Shown piece by piece: positions 1 to 9,810 of a DNA stretch of 33,271 nt (position 1 is its first letter; every line of letters begins with the position of its first letter). Under the pieces are notes generated by a model. That model saw only the letters and a program-made list of their open reading frames with translations. It was not told where the DNA came from and searched no databases. The position numbers and the translations under genes are program-made. Source of the stretch: an uncultured Chloroflexota bacterium (GTDB taxonomy: Bacteria; Chloroflexota; Dehalococcoidia; UBA2979); NCBI GenBank assembly GCA_903917615.1, contig CAIXBH010000160.1, positions 1 to 33,271 on the forward strand, given 5' to 3'.

Positions 1-1
1 C

Positions 2-340
2 GAGATGCAGGAAGCGGTGGGGCGGATCTACGTCGACCCGCTCATCAAGCAGTACGTCGTCGCCCTCGTCAACGCGACGCGCGATCACGAGTCCGTGTAC
101 CTGGGCGCGTCGCCCCGCGGATCGCTCGCGCTCATGCGCGCGACGCAGGCGCACGCGATGCTCGACGGCCGTGACTTCGTGCAGCCGGACGACGTGAAGC
201 TGCTGGCCTACCCCACCCTGGGCCACCGCGTCATCGTCAGCCCGAGCGCCCGCGTCCGCGACATCGACAGCGCGCAGATCGTCGACGAGGCGATCGAGCG
301 TGTGCCGGTGCCGGGTGTGCGCGCACGCGGCGGCGCATAG
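2..340 (+). CDS. MoxR-family AAA+ ATPase, C-terminal fragment (truncated by window start)
   Basis: Translation EMQEAVGRIYVDPLIKQYVVALVNATRDH...ASPRGSLALMRATQAHAMLDGRDFVQPDDVKLLAYPTLGHRV is typical of the MoxR lid domain; followed directly by DUF58. Confidence 0.88.
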   Translation, partial: EMQEAVGRIYVDPLIKQYVVALVNATRDHESVYLGASPRGSLALMRATQAHAMLDGRDFVQPDDVKLLAYPTLGHRVIVSPSARVRDIDSAQIVDEAIERVPVPGVRARGGA

Positions 341-392
341 CGGCACCACGCCGAGGAAGCCGCGGGTCGCCCGCGGAGCAAGGGGGGACGGA

Positions 393-1649
393 GTGACGCG
401 GTTCATCGGCGCCATCCGTCGTCACCAGAACGTCTCGCTTGCCGCGTTCCTCGCGGTGCTGTGCGCCGTGGTCGGATTCGCCACGGGCTTCTGGCTGCTC
501 TTCCGACTGTCCTATCTCGCGCTCTTTGCGATCCCGCTGCTGTACCTGTGGACGCGCGCGATGGCGCGCGGCCTGCAGGTGGAGGTGGAGCGCACCACGC
601 AGCGGGTCACGCAGGGCCAGGCGATCGAGGGCCGCATCATTGTCCGTTCGCGATCGCTCGTGCCGGCGATGTGGCTCGAGGTCGAAGACCCCTCTTCCGT
701 TCCGGGGCACGCCGCGAAGCGCGTGCTGACCCTCGGGCCGCGCGGGCTCGCGTCCTGGGCCTATCGCACACGTACGCGTGTCCGTGGGCTCTACACGCTG
801 GGGCCTGTGCGCGTCACCGCCTCGGACCCGTTCGGGTTCTTCCACATCACGCGGAGCTTCGGTGAGCAGTCGACGCTGCTCGTGTATCCGAACGCCCCGG
901 AGCTGCCGAACTTCTACATCCCGCCCGCGAACCTGCCGGGCGAGGGACGACTCCGCCGTCGCACGCACAACGTCACGCCAAACGTCTCCGGCCTGCGCCA
1001 GTACGAGCCCGGGGACTCCTTCAACCGCGTGCACTGGCCGGCGACGGCGAACCGCGGCGAGCCGATGGTGAAGCTGTTCGAGCTCGACCCGGCATCCGAC
1101 ATCTGGATCGTGCTCGACCTCGAGCGGCAGCATCACGCTGGCGAGGACGAGGAGAACACCGAGGAGACCGCCGTCTCGGTGTGCGCCTCCGTGGCGCGCT
1201 ACTTCATCGGCGCGAACCGCTCCGTTGGGCTGATCGCGTTCGGCGACGACCTTCGTATCAACGAGCCGGATCGCGGTCAGAACCACTACACGCGCATCCT
1301 CGAGTCGCTCGCGCTCGCGCGCGCCACAGGCGATGTGCCGTTGACGAACCTCCTCGTCGAGGAGTCGCGGCGGTTCGGCCGGCACACGACAGTCGTGGTG
1401 GTCACACCTTCACCCCGGCAGGAGTGGGCGCTGACGCTGATGTCGCTCGGGAGCCGCGGCGTCAAGGTCGCGGCGGTGATCATCGAAGCGGACACGTTCG
1501 GGGGCACGACGAGTTCGCTCGACGTGTACGGGACGCTCGCCGCCGGCGGCATCTACGCATACACGGTGAAACACAACGATGACCTCGAGCGTGCCCTCTC
1601 GGAGGGCAGCGACCCGAGCCTCGGGCGCATCGCGCCGGTCAGGCGGTAG
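393..1649 (+). CDS. DUF58 domain protein (VWA-like fold, MIDAS degenerate)
   Basis: Two N-terminal TM segments, then GEGRLRRRTHNVTPNVSGLRQYEPGDSFNRVHWPATANRGEPMVKLFE (DUF58 signature). GTG at 393 is a likelier start than 300, which overlaps MoxR. Confidence 0.9.
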   Translation: MTRFIGAIRRHQNVSLAAFLAVLCAVVGFATGFWLLFRLSYLALFAIPLLYLWTRAMARGLQVEVERTTQRVTQGQAIEGRIIVRSRSLVPAMWLEVEDPSSVPGHAAKRVLTLGPRGLASWAYRTRTRVRGLYTLGPVRVTASDPFGFFHITRSFGEQSTLLVYPNAPELPNFYIPPANLPGEGRLRRRTHNVTPNVSGLRQYEPGDSFNRVHWPATANRGEPMVKLFELDPASDIWIVLDLERQHHAGEDEENTEETAVSVCASVARYFIGANRSVGLIAFGDDLRINEPDRGQNHYTRILESLALARATGDVPLTNLLVEESRRFGRHTTVVVVTPSPRQEWALTLMSLGSRGVKVAAVIIEADTFGGTTSSLDVYGTLAAGGIYAYTVKHNDDLERALSEGSDPSLGRIAPVRR

Positions 1650-1651
1650 CG

Positions 1652-4063
1652 ATGGCTCACCAGGAGCCCACGTTCGATGACCTGTTCATGGACACGCTCG
1701 CGAAGCATCCCGAGCAGGTCGTGCGTTCCTCACGCTGGTTCGCCTCGATGGAATCGTGGGTCACCCTCGCGCTGCTGCTGATGGCGCAGCTGCCCGTCGT
1801 CGGCTCGCTGGAGACGGCGAACTGGGTGCAGGAGATGCCGTCGCTGCTCGCAGCGGCGATGCTCGGACTCGTCGTGGGCTGGCTCCTGGCGCAGTCGCCC
1901 GTTCCCGGTGCGATCGCAACCGTGCTCGGCGCGATCGCCACGGTCGCGTTCCCTGCCGGCCTCGTCTTGCAGCGCATGGTGCCGACCGAGTTCGACCTCG
2001 GCACGGGGTGGCAGGCGAAGTGGACGGAGTTCGTCCTGCGGCTGAAGGCGTGGGGCGACGCACTGGTCAATCACGGCATCTCCGCCGACCCGCTGCCGTT
2101 CGTGTTGCTGCTCGTGATGCTCGTGTTCCTCGTGGCGTATCTCTCCGCGTGGTCCGTCGTGCGCTGGCGGAATGCGTGGGTGGCGCTGATCCCCGGCGGG
2201 ATCGTGCTGCTGACGAACATCTCCTACCTGCCCGGACAGCCCTCGCTCGCGTTCATCGTGTATCTGCTCGCCGCGGTCATGCTCATCACGCGGATGGAGT
2301 TCCTGCGCGCGGTCATTCGCTGGCGCCGCGATCGCGTCCAGCCGCCCGATCTGATGTCCGTCGAGGTGCTGATCGCGGGCGCGGTTGTCGCGGTCGCGTT
2401 GGTCACGGCCGCATGGGTGGTGCCAACGGCGAATCACTGGGGCCCGGTCGCTTCGGCCTGGGAGAAGGTGATGGAGCCGATCAACGAGCGCGTCGCATCC
2501 CTCGGCGAGCTGTTCGTCGGGATCAACTCGAAGAAGCGCGTGCCGGCCCACGCGTTCGGTCCCTCGCTGCCGCTGCAGGGGAAGATGACGCTGGACGCGA
2601 CGCCGATCCTCGAGGTCACCGCGTCGGAACCCGGCAACCTCCGCGGCGCCGTGTACGACGAGTACACCGGCGGTGGTTGGAAGCTCTCCTCAGGTGCGTC
2701 GGCGCCGCTCCCGGGGACGACCGTACAGGCTGCCGAGTTTGGTACCGCCCAGACGCGCGCGCAGGTGCGCAAGCCGATCACGGCGCAGGTGAAGCCGCTG
2801 GTCACGGACGCGCCGGACAAGCGCCTGCTCGCTGTCGGTGATCCGCTCGCTGCGGACATGGCGGCGAAGGAAGTCCTGGACCCCAACCAGGCGCCGCTCG
2901 CGCTCGTGCCGAACGACTCGAAGGCAGTGCCGAAGGGGTACACGACGGTTGGGACGGTCTCGGCGGCGGCCGTGCCGACGCTGCAGGCCGCGGGCACGCA
3001 GTACCCGCCGCAGATCCTCGCCGAGTACACGAAGCTCCCGGCGGACTTCCCGTCGGAGATCCGCGCGCTGGCCACGCAGGTCATCGGCCCCGCGCGCACG
3101 CCGTACGAGGCGGCCCGCCGGGTCGAGAACTACCTGCGCACGACGTACACGTTCACGCTTGAGCCGCCGCCGGCGCCGCCGCGGAAGGATGCGGTGGCTG
3201 CGTTCCTCTTCGACCAGAAGGCGGGGTACTTCGACCAGTTCGCCTCGGCGATGGCCGTCATGCTGCGCACCGCCGGCGTGCCGACGCGCGTGTCGACCGG
3301 CTTCGCGCTCGACCCGGCGGACGTCGACGCGCAGACGAAGGCGTACAAGGTCTCCGAGCTGCGCGCGTGGGCGTGGCCCGAGGTGTACTTCCCGAACCTC
3401 GGCTGGGTCGAGTTCAACCCGACACCCTCCCGTGCACTCGTGCAGCGCGCAGGTGACGACACCGAGGCGCTGGCCGCGCAGGCGGCGGCGCTGGCTGCTC
3501 CGGCGACCAACGATAACCTCGACGGTCTGCTCTTCGACGATGACCCGTTTGCGGACGCGGGCGGCGCGGGCGTGACGCTGACGCAGTCGCCGCTTGGCCG
3601 TCTGGGCGCGATCGTCGTGCAGGTCGTCTCCGTGCTGCTCGTCGTGTCCGTGGTCGCGCTCGTGGTCGCGATCGTCGCCCGGGTGCTGTGGGCGCGGCGC
3701 TTCGCCGGGCTACGTCCGGCAGCGGCGCGCTGGGCGAAGGTGCAGCAGCTGGCGGCGTGGGCCGGTATCGCGCCGGCCGACTACCTGACCCCCGCCGAGG
3801 CGGCGCAGGCGCTCTCGCAGTCGGTCGGCGAGTTGTCGGCGCTCTCGGGCCTCGCCCGCGCGTTCACCCGCGACCGGTACAGCGCGGCGCACCTCGAGGC
3901 GGCCATCGAGCCGGAGCAGGAGGCGAAGGCGCGCGACGCCGAGTACGCGCACGTTCGCGCACGGCTACGGCACCTCATCACGCGGCGCGTGCTGCGTCTG
4001 GGTCGGGTCGAGCAGCGCGCGCTAGCGCGGCGGTACACCACGCCCGCCGCTGCGCGGCGTTAG
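1652..4063 (+). CDS. TgpA-like multi-TM protein with transglutaminase-like domain (catalytic residues apparently substituted)
   Basis: Multiple N-terminal TM helices, a transglutaminase-like core (YFDQFASAMAVMLRTAGVPTRVSTGFALDP...AWAWPEVYFPNLGWVEFNPTPSR), a late TM and a C-terminal domain; MoxR-DUF58-TgpA gene order. Confidence 0.88.
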   Translation: MAHQEPTFDDLFMDTLAKHPEQVVRSSRWFASMESWVTLALLLMAQLPVVGSLETANWVQEMPSLLAAAMLGLVVGWLLAQSPVPGAIATVLGAIATVAFPAGLVLQRMVPTEFDLGTGWQAKWTEFVLRLKAWGDALVNHGISADPLPFVLLLVMLVFLVAYLSAWSVVRWRNAWVALIPGGIVLLTNISYLPGQPSLAFIVYLLAAVMLITRMEFLRAVIRWRRDRVQPPDLMSVEVLIAGAVVAVALVTAAWVVPTANHWGPVASAWEKVMEPINERVASLGELFVGINSKKRVPAHAFGPSLPLQGKMTLDATPILEVTASEPGNLRGAVYDEYTGGGWKLSSGASAPLPGTTVQAAEFGTAQTRAQVRKPITAQVKPLVTDAPDKRLLAVGDPLAADMAAKEVLDPNQAPLALVPNDSKAVPKGYTTVGTVSAAAVPTLQAAGTQYPPQILAEYTKLPADFPSEIRALATQVIGPARTPYEAARRVENYLRTTYTFTLEPPPAPPRKDAVAAFLFDQKAGYFDQFASAMAVMLRTAGVPTRVSTGFALDPADVDAQTKAYKVSELRAWAWPEVYFPNLGWVEFNPTPSRALVQRAGDDTEALAAQAAALAAPATNDNLDGLLFDDDPFADAGGAGVTLTQSPLGRLGAIVVQVVSVLLVVSVVALVVAIVARVLWARRFAGLRPAAARWAKVQQLAAWAGIAPADYLTPAEAAQALSQSVGELSALSGLARAFTRDRYSAAHLEAAIEPEQEAKARDAEYAHVRARLRHLITRRVLRLGRVEQRALARRYTTPAAARR

Positions 4064-5848
4064 CTGCTGCAGGTCGTTCGCCCGTCCCGCCAGCTCCAGG
4101 ATGCGGCGGGCTTCGTCGGCGGTGACCTCGGGCCCGAGTTGCGCGAGCGCCGCGTCGAGCGCGGCAGCGGCCGCCGCCGCGGTGGCGGGGCCGGTCGCGC
4201 CGTTCGGCTGACCTGAGCCCTGTCCCGGCTGCCCTGACTGCTGCCCCGGCTGTTGCCCGGGCTGGGGTGTGCCTTGCGGGGCCGGCTGCTGTCCCTGCTG
4301 CCCGGGCTGCTGACCTTGCTGGCCGGGTTGCGGTGTCCCCTGCTGACCCGGCTGCTGCTGTGGCTGTTGCTGCGGAGCCGGGGGCGGCGGCGCGATCCTG
4401 CGGAGCACCAGCTCGAGGTTGGCTTTCGCGTCGCGGTCGGTGGGGTCGGCGCGCAGCACCGCCTCGTACGCGGCGCGCGCTTGGGCGAGTTCTCCGCGTT
4501 CCACCGCGATGTTGCCGCTCGTGTACGTCAGGCGCGCGGCGACGTCCGTGTCTTTGGTTGCGGCGAACGCTGCCGCCGCGGTGACGCCTGCTTCCTCGAG
4601 CCGCTTGAGTTGGAACAGCGCGTTCGCGATGTCGTAGTTGATGGCGGCGTCGCCGGGCTGATTCGCAGCGCGATACGCGGCAAGCGCGGCGTCGTAGCGC
4701 CGTGCCGCGTAGTCGCGATTGCCCTGCTCCACCTGACGCCAGGCCTCGGTCCCGGCGCAGCCGGCGAGCAGCAGCGCGACTGCGCCAGCAACCGCGGCCT
4801 GCGTGCCCGCGCGGCGGCTTCGATGTCCGCGCTCTGCCGGCGGTGTCGCCCCGCTGGATGCCGTGAGGAGCGCGTGGAGCAGCAGCAGCGCGAGCGCGGC
4901 GCCGAGGAACCACTGGAAGCGCTCGATGGGTGCGGGCTGATCGGCGCTCGCGAATTGCGTGGTGCGCAGGCGGCGGAACTCGACGGCGAGTCCAGGCGTC
5001 GTTGCGACCTCGCGGAACTGCCCGCCTGTCCCCTGCGCGATGCGTTCGAGCGGTGCGCGGGATGCGTGGGTCACATCCGTACCCCCGCTGCTCGCGGGCA
5101 GCGTGACGTCCGCGTCCGTGCCGGCGAAGACGGTGTAGACGGGGACGTGTTTGTCCTGCGCGCGCTGGATCGCGGAGGCGGCGCCCGCCCCGAGGTCTTC
5201 GCCGTCGGACACGAGGACGATCGCCTGCGTGCGCGCAGCGTCCTGCACCGTCAGGAGGTTCATCGCCGTCTCGATTGCGAGCCGCAGGTCGGTGCCCGGC
5301 TGCACGAGGGGCGCCTCGAGCTGCGCGCGGTCGATGAGCGTGGACAACGCCGGGATGTCGAGCGTGAGCGGTGCGCGCTCGAACGCGCTGCCGGCGAACG
5401 TGACGAGGCCGACGCGGTTGCCCTGCATGTGCGCGATCATGTCGCGCAGGCCCCGCGCCGCGGCACCCGCGCGTGAGGGCGCGATGTCCGTCGCGGTCAT
5501 CGAACGCGAGACGTCGAGCACGATGACGACGTCGATGCCGCGCTGCTCCACCGGCGCGGGGGCGCGACCCCAGCGTGGCCGCGCAATGGCGAGCGCGAGC
5601 AGTGTGATTGCGGCGAGCAGGAGCATCGTGCGCGCGCGACCTCGTGCGGGCGAACGTCCCAGCCGCAGAGCGGGCGCACCGCCGTAGCGCGCGTCCGCCT
5701 CCGCCTGCCGTCGGCGCAAATGTCGCTCAGCGAGGGCGAGCAGCGGCAGTGCGAGCAGCGCGATGAGGCCGAGGGGCTGCGCGAACCCGACGCCGGTGAC
5801 GGAGATCCACTGTTGCAGTGCGGCGGTCACGGCTGGCTCCGGAGCCAT
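4022..5848 (-). CDS. VWA-domain protein fused to TPR domain (BatB-BatC-like fusion) with Q/G/P-rich tail
   Basis: MAPEPAVTAALQQW...VEQRGIDVVIVLDVSRSMTATDIAPSR (MIDAS DxSxS), then TPR-like repeats (GNRDYAARRYDAALAAYRAANQPGDAAINYDIANALFQLKRLEEAG), then PGQQGQQ repeats. ATG at 5848 follows the upstream VWA gene. Confidence 0.87.
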   Translation of the reverse strand: MAPEPAVTAALQQWISVTGVGFAQPLGLIALLALPLLALAERHLRRRQAEADARYGGAPALRLGRSPARGRARTMLLLAAITLLALAIARPRWGRAPAPVEQRGIDVVIVLDVSRSMTATDIAPSRAGAAARGLRDMIAHMQGNRVGLVTFAGSAFERAPLTLDIPALSTLIDRAQLEAPLVQPGTDLRLAIETAMNLLTVQDAARTQAIVLVSDGEDLGAGAASAIQRAQDKHVPVYTVFAGTDADVTLPASSGGTDVTHASRAPLERIAQGTGGQFREVATTPGLAVEFRRLRTTQFASADQPAPIERFQWFLGAALALLLLHALLTASSGATPPAERGHRSRRAGTQAAVAGAVALLLAGCAGTEAWRQVEQGNRDYAARRYDAALAAYRAANQPGDAAINYDIANALFQLKRLEEAGVTAAAAFAATKDTDVAARLTYTSGNIAVERGELAQARAAYEAVLRADPTDRDAKANLELVLRRIAPPPPAPQQQPQQQPGQQGTPQPGQQGQQPGQQGQQPAPQGTPQPGQQPGQQSGQPGQGSGQPNGATGPATAAAAAAALDAALAQLGPEVTADEARRILELAGRANDLQQLTPRSGGRGVPPR

Positions 5849-6765
5849 GTGGCACGCAGCGCTGCCTCGAGCAGGAGCAGCGACACCGCTGCACCCGCGA
5901 TCCACGGCGCGTATTCCTGGAACGACGTGAACTGTCGTTCGCCCAGCTTCGACGTCTCGAGGTTGCTGATCTCGCTGTACGCCGCCTGCAGGTCGCTCTG
6001 CGTGCGAGCATCGAAGGAACGACCGCCCGTGGATTCCGCCATGTTGCGGAGCAACTGGCGGTCGACGCCGCCCGCCTCGTTGCTGAGGAACCCGATCGTG
6101 TAGACGCGGACGCCGAGTGCCTGCGCGACGCGTGCGGCATCGAGCGGGGTGATCTGTCCGGCGTTGTTCTCGCCGTCCGTGAGGAGCACGACGACGCGGC
6201 TCTTCGCGGGCGAGTCCTGCAGCAGTGAGGTCGCCTGCGCGAGGCCGAGGCCGATCGCGGTGCCGTCGGGGAGCAGTCCGGGTGCGAGGGATCGCACGCG
6301 CGCGTGTACCGCATCCATGTCGTTCGTCAGCGGTGAGAGCGTCAGTGCGCGCTGCTGGAAGATGACGATGCCGACGCGGTCGCCCTTCAGCGTGTCCACG
6401 AAGTTGCTCACGACCGTTTGTGCGGCTGAGATGCGCGTGCCCCCGCCGGGGACGCTCGATGTCATCGAACTGGAGACGTCGACGGTGACGACGACGTCGA
6501 TGCCCTGCTCGGGGAGCACCGTGATCGCGAGGCCGGCGCGGGGACGCGAGAGCGCGATGACGACGAGGACGATCGCCAGCGCACGCAGGACAAGCGGCAG
6601 CCGACGCAGGCGCAGCCGCCACGTGCGACGTGCAGCGGCGCGGAGCGGCGCGATCTCGGCGACGACGAGCGCCGGCGCTGGCCGCGCGGCGCGCGCCCAC
6701 TCGCGCAGCACGAGCACGGCGACGACCGGCAGGAGCAGCAGCACCCACGGCGAGGCGAGCGTCAT
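5827..6765 (-). CDS. VWA-domain membrane protein (BatA-like)
   Basis: MTLASPWVLLLLPVVAVLVLREWARA...QGIDVVVTVDVSSSMTSSVPGGGTRISAAQTVVSNFVDTLKGDRVGIVIF; MIDAS DVSSS. Start overlaps the upstream gene stop by 4 nt. Confidence 0.9.
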   Translation of the reverse strand: MTLASPWVLLLLPVVAVLVLREWARAARPAPALVVAEIAPLRAAARRTWRLRLRRLPLVLRALAIVLVVIALSRPRAGLAITVLPEQGIDVVVTVDVSSSMTSSVPGGGTRISAAQTVVSNFVDTLKGDRVGIVIFQQRALTLSPLTNDMDAVHARVRSLAPGLLPDGTAIGLGLAQATSLLQDSPAKSRVVVLLTDGENNAGQITPLDAARVAQALGVRVYTIGFLSNEAGGVDRQLLRNMAESTGGRSFDARTQSDLQAAYSEISNLETSKLGERQFTSFQEYAPWIAGAAVSLLLLEAALRATWLRSQP

Positions 6766-7748
6766 GCGGGCACCGCCTCGGGCGCAGGCGTCGCTGCGGC
6801 CTGCGGGCGCGAGAGCTCGACGATCTCGTACGCCACCGTCAGGTCGTGGTCCGCGGATGCGGGGTTTGGGTACTGCCGCGCGAAGATCGCGGCGTCGCAG
6901 CGTTCGAGGAGGCCGCCCACGAGACGCGCCTGCCAGCGGTCGACACCGTGCGCGATCATTCGCTGCTCGAGCTCGGTGGTGGTGAGCGCATGCGCGTTGA
7001 ATCCGAAGCGCGCGCTCAGGTACTGGCGCACCGCGAGCGCGATGCCGCCGTAGTAGTGCTGGAAGCTCTCGTCGTCGTGCGCGCCGGCGACGAGCATGTC
7101 GAGCGCCTCGCGTGCGGTCCGTTCGGGTGACACATCGATCACCGGCGCCTCCACGTGACGGGCGCGGCGGCGGCGCACCCAGAGCGTCACGAGGGCGGCA
7201 ATGATCACGACGGCGAGGGTCGCGGCACCGTAGATGGCCGGTCGCACCCACGCGGGCGGCGCGCCCGCCACGCCGAGCTGCGGCTTGAGCGGGCGCAGTT
7301 GTTCGTCCTTCTCGCTGCGGGTTGGCGTCACGATCAGCGTTGTCGCCGGACCGGCGAGATCGCCGTTGCTGCCGTCGGCGCGCAACCAGGAAAGACGGAC
7401 GGGACCGGTCGCGATCGGTTCAAGGAGGAACGGCTGCACGGTCCAGGTGAAGGTCGTGATCTGCCCCCCGCCGGCCGGGTCATCTCGTGTGACCGGCGTA
7501 CCCGTGTCCCGCACGTCGAGATGGTCGATTTGCGGCGCCGGCGCGTCGACGATCACGTCCGCGGCGTGACGCGCGGTGACCGTCATCGTCACGCGGTCGC
7601 CGATGCTGACCTGCGGCGGCGTGAAGGCGACGGTGACCTCGATGCTGGGCGCGCCGACAGGGGGGCGCTGCGCCATTGCCGCCGCCGGCAGGCCCACCGC
7701 GCACAGGAGTGCGAGCAGCGCGAACAGCGGAAGCGCGACGCGTGTCAT
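6762..7748 (-). CDS. BatD/DUF4381-like membrane protein with signal peptide
   Basis: Signal peptide MTRVALPLFALLALLCAVGLPAAAMAQ, beta-rich ectodomain, one TM (AATLAVVIIAALVTLWV) and a cytoplasmic domain; sits between DUF58 and VWA genes. Confidence 0.7.
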   Translation of the reverse strand: MTRVALPLFALLALLCAVGLPAAAMAQRPPVGAPSIEVTVAFTPPQVSIGDRVTMTVTARHAADVIVDAPAPQIDHLDVRDTGTPVTRDDPAGGGQITTFTWTVQPFLLEPIATGPVRLSWLRADGSNGDLAGPATTLIVTPTRSEKDEQLRPLKPQLGVAGAPPAWVRPAIYGAATLAVVIIAALVTLWVRRRRARHVEAPVIDVSPERTAREALDMLVAGAHDDESFQHYYGGIALAVRQYLSARFGFNAHALTTTELEQRMIAHGVDRWQARLVGGLLERCDAAIFARQYPNPASADHDLTVAYEIVELSRPQAAATPAPEAVPA

Positions 7749-8665
7749 CGAGACTGTGCCCGGCGGCGGAAGTACGCGGCGACCGGAGTGATCGCATCGC
7801 CCTCGATGTCGATTGCGATCTCTTCGACGCCTGCCTGCAACAGGGTCTGGCGGCGTCGCTCCGCGCGCGCGGCGCCGGCGGCGGCGTAGTCCGCGCGGAC
7901 GGAGGCGTTGCTTGTGTCCACCCAGAGCCGCTCACCGGTCTCCGCGTCCGCGATCGCGACCATGCCCATGTCGGGCAGCGCGAGGTCGTTCGCGTCGTTC
8001 AGCGTGAGGGCGATCATCTCGTGCCGCTGTGCGAGGCCGCGCAGCGATTCGACGTAGCCGTCCGCGAGGAAGTCCGAGATCACGAACACCATCGACCGGC
8101 GCCCGAGCACCTGCGCGAGGTAGTCCGCGGCCGCGCCGATGTTCGTGCCGCGCCCGATCGCGGGCGCCGCGGTGAGGACGTCGCGCACGAGGCGCAGTGC
8201 ATGGCGTGTGGTCCGCTTCGGCGGGACGTACGCATCGATGCCATCGCTGAACAGCAGGAGGCCAGCGCGGTCGTTGCTCTGCGTCGCGGCGAAGGAGAGC
8301 AGCGCGGTTAACTCGCCGGCGGCGCCCAGGCGGCCCGCGACCGGCCGGCCGACGAGGGACGACGCAGAGCTGTCGACGGCGCAGATCACCGTGAGGTCGC
8401 GTTCCTCGACGAACTGCTTCACCCACGGCGTGCCCATGCGCGCGGTGACGTTCCAGTCGATGAGGCGGACATCGTCGCCGTCGATGTATTCACGCGCCTC
8501 GGCGAATTCGATGCCCGAGCCGCGGAAGATTGAACGGTACTCGCCGCCGACGAGCGATGCGGTGAGGCGGCGCGTGCGGATCTCGATCGTGCGGATGCGC
8601 GCGAGCAACTCGGAGCTCAGTCCGATGGGCGCATCCGAGGATTGCGAGGAAGCGGTGGTGGCCAT
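7745..8665 (-). CDS. DUF58 domain protein (intact MIDAS)
   Basis: RSIFRGSGIEFAEAREYIDGDDVRLIDWNVTARMGTPWVKQFVEERDLTVICAVDSSASS, the classical DUF58 signature. Confidence 0.93.
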   Translation of the reverse strand: MATTASSQSSDAPIGLSSELLARIRTIEIRTRRLTASLVGGEYRSIFRGSGIEFAEAREYIDGDDVRLIDWNVTARMGTPWVKQFVEERDLTVICAVDSSASSLVGRPVAGRLGAAGELTALLSFAATQSNDRAGLLLFSDGIDAYVPPKRTTRHALRLVRDVLTAAPAIGRGTNIGAAADYLAQVLGRRSMVFVISDFLADGYVESLRGLAQRHEMIALTLNDANDLALPDMGMVAIADAETGERLWVDTSNASVRADYAAAGAARAERRRQTLLQAGVEEIAIDIEGDAITPVAAYFRRRAQSR

Positions 8666-8673
8666 CGCGCGGC

Positions 8674-9666
<993 letters not shown>

Positions 9667-9810
9667 CCGATCCTCCCCCTGGTCCGCGGTCGTGCCGGGA
9701 CCGGCGTGGCGGGACGAGTCCCCCGAATGGCACAAGTCTAGCCGAGCGCCATTCGCGCCGTGTTACCGAAGGAACGTCCAGCCAGGGGAATCGGACTCAC
9801 GCCGGGCGGG

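Follow-up and report, generated by a model that had tools for sequence, protein, structure and literature searches.

The locus raises the question of whether a TgpA-like protein without its catalytic residues can still be a working member of the module that encodes it. The window (the whole stretch of 33,271 nucleotides analysed here, contig CAIXBH010000160.1 of an uncultured Dehalococcoidia bacterium) opens with genes in the order MoxR-DUF58-TgpA, and the third of these is an intact open reading frame of 803 codons with an ATG start (1652-4063, forward strand), as a preliminary description had stated, encoding a full-length TgpA homologue. We consider it probable that this gene encodes a pseudoenzyme TgpA that is folded, kept by selection and part of the module, performs no catalytic chemistry, and likely serves in binding or as a scaffold. 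The features discussed below are these.

1-340, forward strand: MoxR-type AAA+ ATPase, C-terminal part (AAA_lid_2, PF17863, 86 bits); the start of the contig (base 1) cuts the gene
300-1649, forward strand: DUF58 protein, second gene of the module (PF01882, 69 bits); its true start may lie downstream of 300
1652-4063, forward strand: TgpA-like membrane protein of 803 aa with a degenerate transglutaminase domain (Pfam, phmmer, AlphaFold2)
1748-2419, forward strand: N-terminal membrane helices, TgpA_N-like, residues 33-256 (predicted helices)
2420-3601, forward strand: predicted extracytoplasmic region with the transglutaminase core, residues 257-650 (Foldseek, 6g4h/6g49)
3062-3421, forward strand: Transglut_core domain, residues 471-590 (PF01841, 82 bits; pLDDT blocks 94-98)
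3230-3232, forward strand: F527 (TTC) replacing the catalytic Cys, at the start of helix 527-540 (alignment and model)
3368-3370, forward strand: W573 (TGG) replacing the catalytic His, on strand 572-580 (alignment and model)
3416-3418, forward strand: N589 (AAC) replacing the catalytic acid, right after strand 584-587 (alignment and model)
3716-3997, forward strand: C-terminal helical tail past the last membrane helix, residues 689-782, DUF4129 equivalent (helices in the model)

An AlphaFold2 model of the protein, built on a 71-sequence alignment, has a mean pLDDT of 88 and places Transglut_core between membrane helices 33-288 and 651-683. The core is predicted with high confidence (94-98), so that the fold-defining surroundings of the altered residues do appear to be kept, as had been proposed. 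The top PDB matches by Foldseek are the TgpA periplasmic domain entries 6g4h (E 5e-12) and 6g49 (E 7e-12), with a TM-score by target of 0.65; erythrocyte protein 4.2 (8cs9_X) is a weak match (E 0.09), and a viral fold library gave no match at E <= 0.001. In the model a helix begins at F527, W573 is part of strand 572-580, and N589 comes just after strand 584-587; papain/transglutaminase folds place their catalytic residues in this way, at a helix start, on a strand, and after the next strand. The terminal parts are recognized less readily by profile, with TgpA_N (PF11992) scoring 12 bits in the window protein and 26 bits in a relative (L016), both below the cut-off of 30. DUF4129 (PF13559) exceeds its cut-off in three members of the clade described below (L118, L106, L108) and has no match in the window protein; a DUF4129-like tail is retained in clade members. 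An NCBIfam search returned no match.

Active transglutaminases and papain-like cysteine enzymes use a Cys-His-(Asp/Glu/Asn) triad, which is absent here. In a phmmer alignment to Pseudomonas aeruginosa TgpA (PDB 6g49), the Cys of GFC is matched by F527, the His of DAHAW by W573, and the Asp of VDPT by N589; a 29-sequence profile search gives the same alignment of the triad to 6g49. The codons are at the coordinates first assigned to them. That all three residues are replaced also holds, although the preliminary description took Asp to be the usual third residue and Chloroflexota TgpA normally has Glu. A misalignment hiding an intact triad elsewhere in the protein is hardly credible: three alignments concur, and a hidden Cys-His triad is impossible because the entire protein has no Cys and the domain has no His (the complete list is residues 3, 19, 141, 262, 300, 747, 767 and 774, with none in 301-746).

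The survey family to which the genome belongs (f1; 44 genomes, 17 genera) has a TgpA relative in surveyed members of every genus but one (g5). Among 35 distinct orthologues from the family, W573 and N589 are invariant and position 527 is Phe in 33 and Ser in 2, with identity to the window protein falling as low as 33%. A sequencing error is excluded by this invariance over such divergence, and chance falls far short of explaining why every family orthologue examined has the F/W/N state (Ser for Phe in 2/35). Conservation in these orthologues peaks in the transglutaminase core (mean entropy 1.3 bits vs 1.6-2.4 elsewhere). The dN/dS between the window gene and its nearest relative is 0.24 (core 0.25), and for other close pairs in the family, at 85-94% identity, the full-length ratio is 0.12-0.22 and that of the core mostly lower, values to be read with dS being moderate and possibly underestimated in GC-rich genomes. 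The family was not found to hold relatives with the normal triad alongside decay of the gene here. A DNA pattern for the F-type motif was discarded as too strict, having picked up only 14 of 44 genomes.

No second TgpA scored above the family cut-off in the window's own genome, which is 88% complete, so that an active paralogue could be missing from it. The genome has a second weak Transglut_core match, a 405-aa ORF (L002), which was rejected as not a TgpA and resembles a family that we take to be the SirB1 type. Another f1 genome (G013) encodes a second TgpA of the Ser-His-Glu type.

Within the class, Dehalococcoidia, 122 distinct TgpA-like proteins with a family code were read: the triad is destroyed in 69, Cys-His-Glu/Asp in 24, Ser-His-Glu in 22, and partial in 6, and one is an outlier. 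Destroyed states include FWN, FYN, FFN, FFS, FYS, PYS and VLL, among others; two of the 69 are YYD proteins that keep Asp at the third place, with Cys and His gone. Elsewhere in the Chloroflexota, 60 of 64 distinct proteins are Cys-His-Glu, and in the other four Ser or Ala takes the place of Cys; none of the 64 has lost His or Glu. Eleven of 12 plasmid TgpA-like domains from other phyla are Cys-His-Asp/Glu; the twelfth, from the actinobacterium Nonomuraea gerenzanensis (L243, NZ_LT559118.1), is degenerate (S-M-Y), apparently through an independent loss.

In a tree of 189 proteins computed with the triad columns omitted, the 72 substituted proteins group together (support 97). A thinned 87-protein tree (mixture model, triad columns again omitted) places all 33 substituted proteins on one side of a branch with an SH-aLRT of 100, requiring one change; the Cys state needs 6 changes on this tree and the His state 2. 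The substituted proteins span 14 families of the class by survey family codes, sampled unevenly, with about half of the proteins from f1. By these trees a single loss of the triad took place, in the shared ancestor of a large clade of the class, and the Cys alone (to Ser or Ala) was apparently lost on several further occasions in the class. What had been described as a loss in this protein is thus correct for the protein and is wider in extent, marking a clade of at least 14 families that the preliminary description had not seen. We found no earlier description of the substituted clade: in a search of open-access papers, with subscription literature outside it, Dehalococcoidia and transglutaminase occur together in none.

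The class also holds the 22 Ser-His-Glu TgpA proteins (L129, L130, L131, L138, L140 and L147 among them), with three more elsewhere in the phylum; these may be serine-type enzymes or half-dead forms. A 2181-aa open frame in one genome (L052, G040:C60, 1985-8527, forward strand) carries two transglutaminase cores, both Cys-His-Glu, and another genome (G210) has a similar frame of 2346 aa.

A gene that had lost catalysis and was drifting toward a pseudogene could show the varied triad states of some sister families (PYS, VLL, VMA). This reading is highly improbable and is already contradicted: the ORF is intact in the great majority of f1 genomes searched, dN/dS is well below 1, the core is more conserved than the remainder, operon order is invariant, and the loss came before the 14 families diverged, too long ago for a gene merely drifting without a function.

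All 31 clade loci with sufficient upstream sequence have DUF58 immediately before TgpA and MoxR before that, both in the orientation of TgpA; L165, a further locus that lacks the pair, is an outlier outside the clade. The one genus without TgpA, g5, also lacks the module's DUF58. On the domains predicted, the whole architecture and gene order have outlived loss of the catalytic residues. Of the VWA metal site DxSxS, the window DUF58 protein (300-1649) retains the first Asp alone, a condition found phylum-wide beside any TgpA state; coupling of this MIDAS loss to triad loss was considered and rejected as unrelated, since DxSxS is also missing beside intact TgpA. The window contains a second MoxR-DUF58 module on the reverse strand (4022-9735), tail to tail with the first and composed of MoxR, a DUF58 protein with DSSAS, a DUF4381-like protein, two VWA/BatA-like proteins and a TPR protein. 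A second MoxR-DUF58 pair of the genome (L236, at G000:C62) offers no active partner, because no TgpA adjoins it; relatives of its DUF58 (L234, L235) are paired with MoxR and likewise lack TgpA.

If the gene is kept, the domain might still be enzymatic through other residues (e.g. D528, E577, N589, or a conserved Arg or Tyr) and catalyse a different reaction. Its standing as the most conserved part of the protein, with W573 and N589 invariant in f1, would suit this, but in a scan no nucleophile, base or metal-binding set emerged as newly conserved, and the only core residues fixed in the clade and not in Cys-type relatives are F527, N589 and P510. H530 occurs in part of the clade and is absent from the window protein, and normal TgpA shares the conserved charged residues, for which the fold is then sufficient explanation. 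We regard such an enzyme as quite improbable.

The domain itself could instead be irrelevant, the helices and tail serving the module and the core being kept only to fold between them. The triad positions vary among families after the loss (VLL, VMA, PLS, SLA, with f1 fixed as F-W-N), and four residues outside the core (M62, W172, G434, W694) are also fixed in the substituted clade and not in Cys-type relatives, both of which would suit this reading; these four are possibly linked to a changed role. Were the core no more than a spacer, however, one would expect it to be shortened or variable, and in f1 no segment is more conserved, which makes this reading unlikely.

The pseudoenzyme reading, in which the domain itself is retained for a non-catalytic role, is well supported at the level of sequence. 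A homologous predicted fold, loss of the catalytic residues and dN/dS below 1, the marks of a pseudoenzyme, were seen together here. The proposal of a non-catalytic pseudo-transglutaminase kept in its module has therefore held up: Cys is absent from the protein and His from the domain, the acid is replaced, and a TgpA-like model, a conserved core under purifying selection and an intact MoxR-DUF58-TgpA order speak for retention. The protein would have no activity of any kind and would act as a scaffold or ligand-binding subunit. Cys, His and the acid would all have been replaced once in the clade ancestor, the f1 site then becoming fixed as Phe-Trp-Asn. The cleft, now presumably lined by aromatic residues, could bind a peptide or envelope ligand without turnover, or the domain could form a rigid packing surface; with positions as variable as they are across the clade, a general structural role is a better fit than a single fixed mode of binding. 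Through its membrane helices and DUF4129-like tail the protein may hold the cytoplasmic DUF58 protein and MoxR ATPase or pass a signal to them, so that TgpA would be the module's outward-facing scaffold or sensor in the membrane. TgpA may contact DUF58 or MoxR, going by gene order and joint absence in one genus.

More tentatively, at least 14 Dehalococcoidia-like families may run the MoxR-DUF58-TgpA module with a non-catalytic TgpA, the core job of TgpA being to bind and scaffold and catalysis being dispensable or secondary; we hold this possible but doubtful. If true, binding or scaffolding would be the core TgpA job in a very widespread module. A clade that dropped the triad and kept the protein, its partners and their order is a natural experiment in which catalysis and structure, as roles of TgpA, come apart, and it predicts that TgpA can go on supporting the module even without catalysis. 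Annotations as 'transglutaminase' in these lineages would be wrong as to activity.

Pseudoenzyme transglutaminases are already known. Erythrocyte protein 4.2 (EPB42) is a catalytically dead transglutaminase that serves as a structural protein at the membrane; it differs from the window protein in being an animal protein without the TgpA membrane parts. Bacterial precedents are RloB and the inactive domains of polymorphic toxins. RloB is an inactive transglutaminase fused to seven membrane helices, with an ATP-grasp protein and a secreted aspartic protease as partners (PMC12239564), whereas the partners in the window are MoxR and DUF58, RloB being compared by description only. Polymorphic toxins have inactive transglutaminase domains without one or more of C, H and D, for which peptide binding for surface anchoring was proposed (PMC3482391); they share the loss of catalytic residues and differ in context, being N-terminal in secreted toxins with RHS repeats next. 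In sequence as in fold, the top match for the window protein is P. aeruginosa TgpA (PA2873), which is cotranscribed with two upstream genes (PA2875-PA2874), has a periplasmic domain with demonstrated transglutaminase activity, and is reported to be essential (PMC3507681). The two proteins share membrane helices, an extracytoplasmic Transglut_core (6g49/6g4h) and two upstream genes, but the Cys-His-Asp of P. aeruginosa TgpA is missing in full from the window protein.
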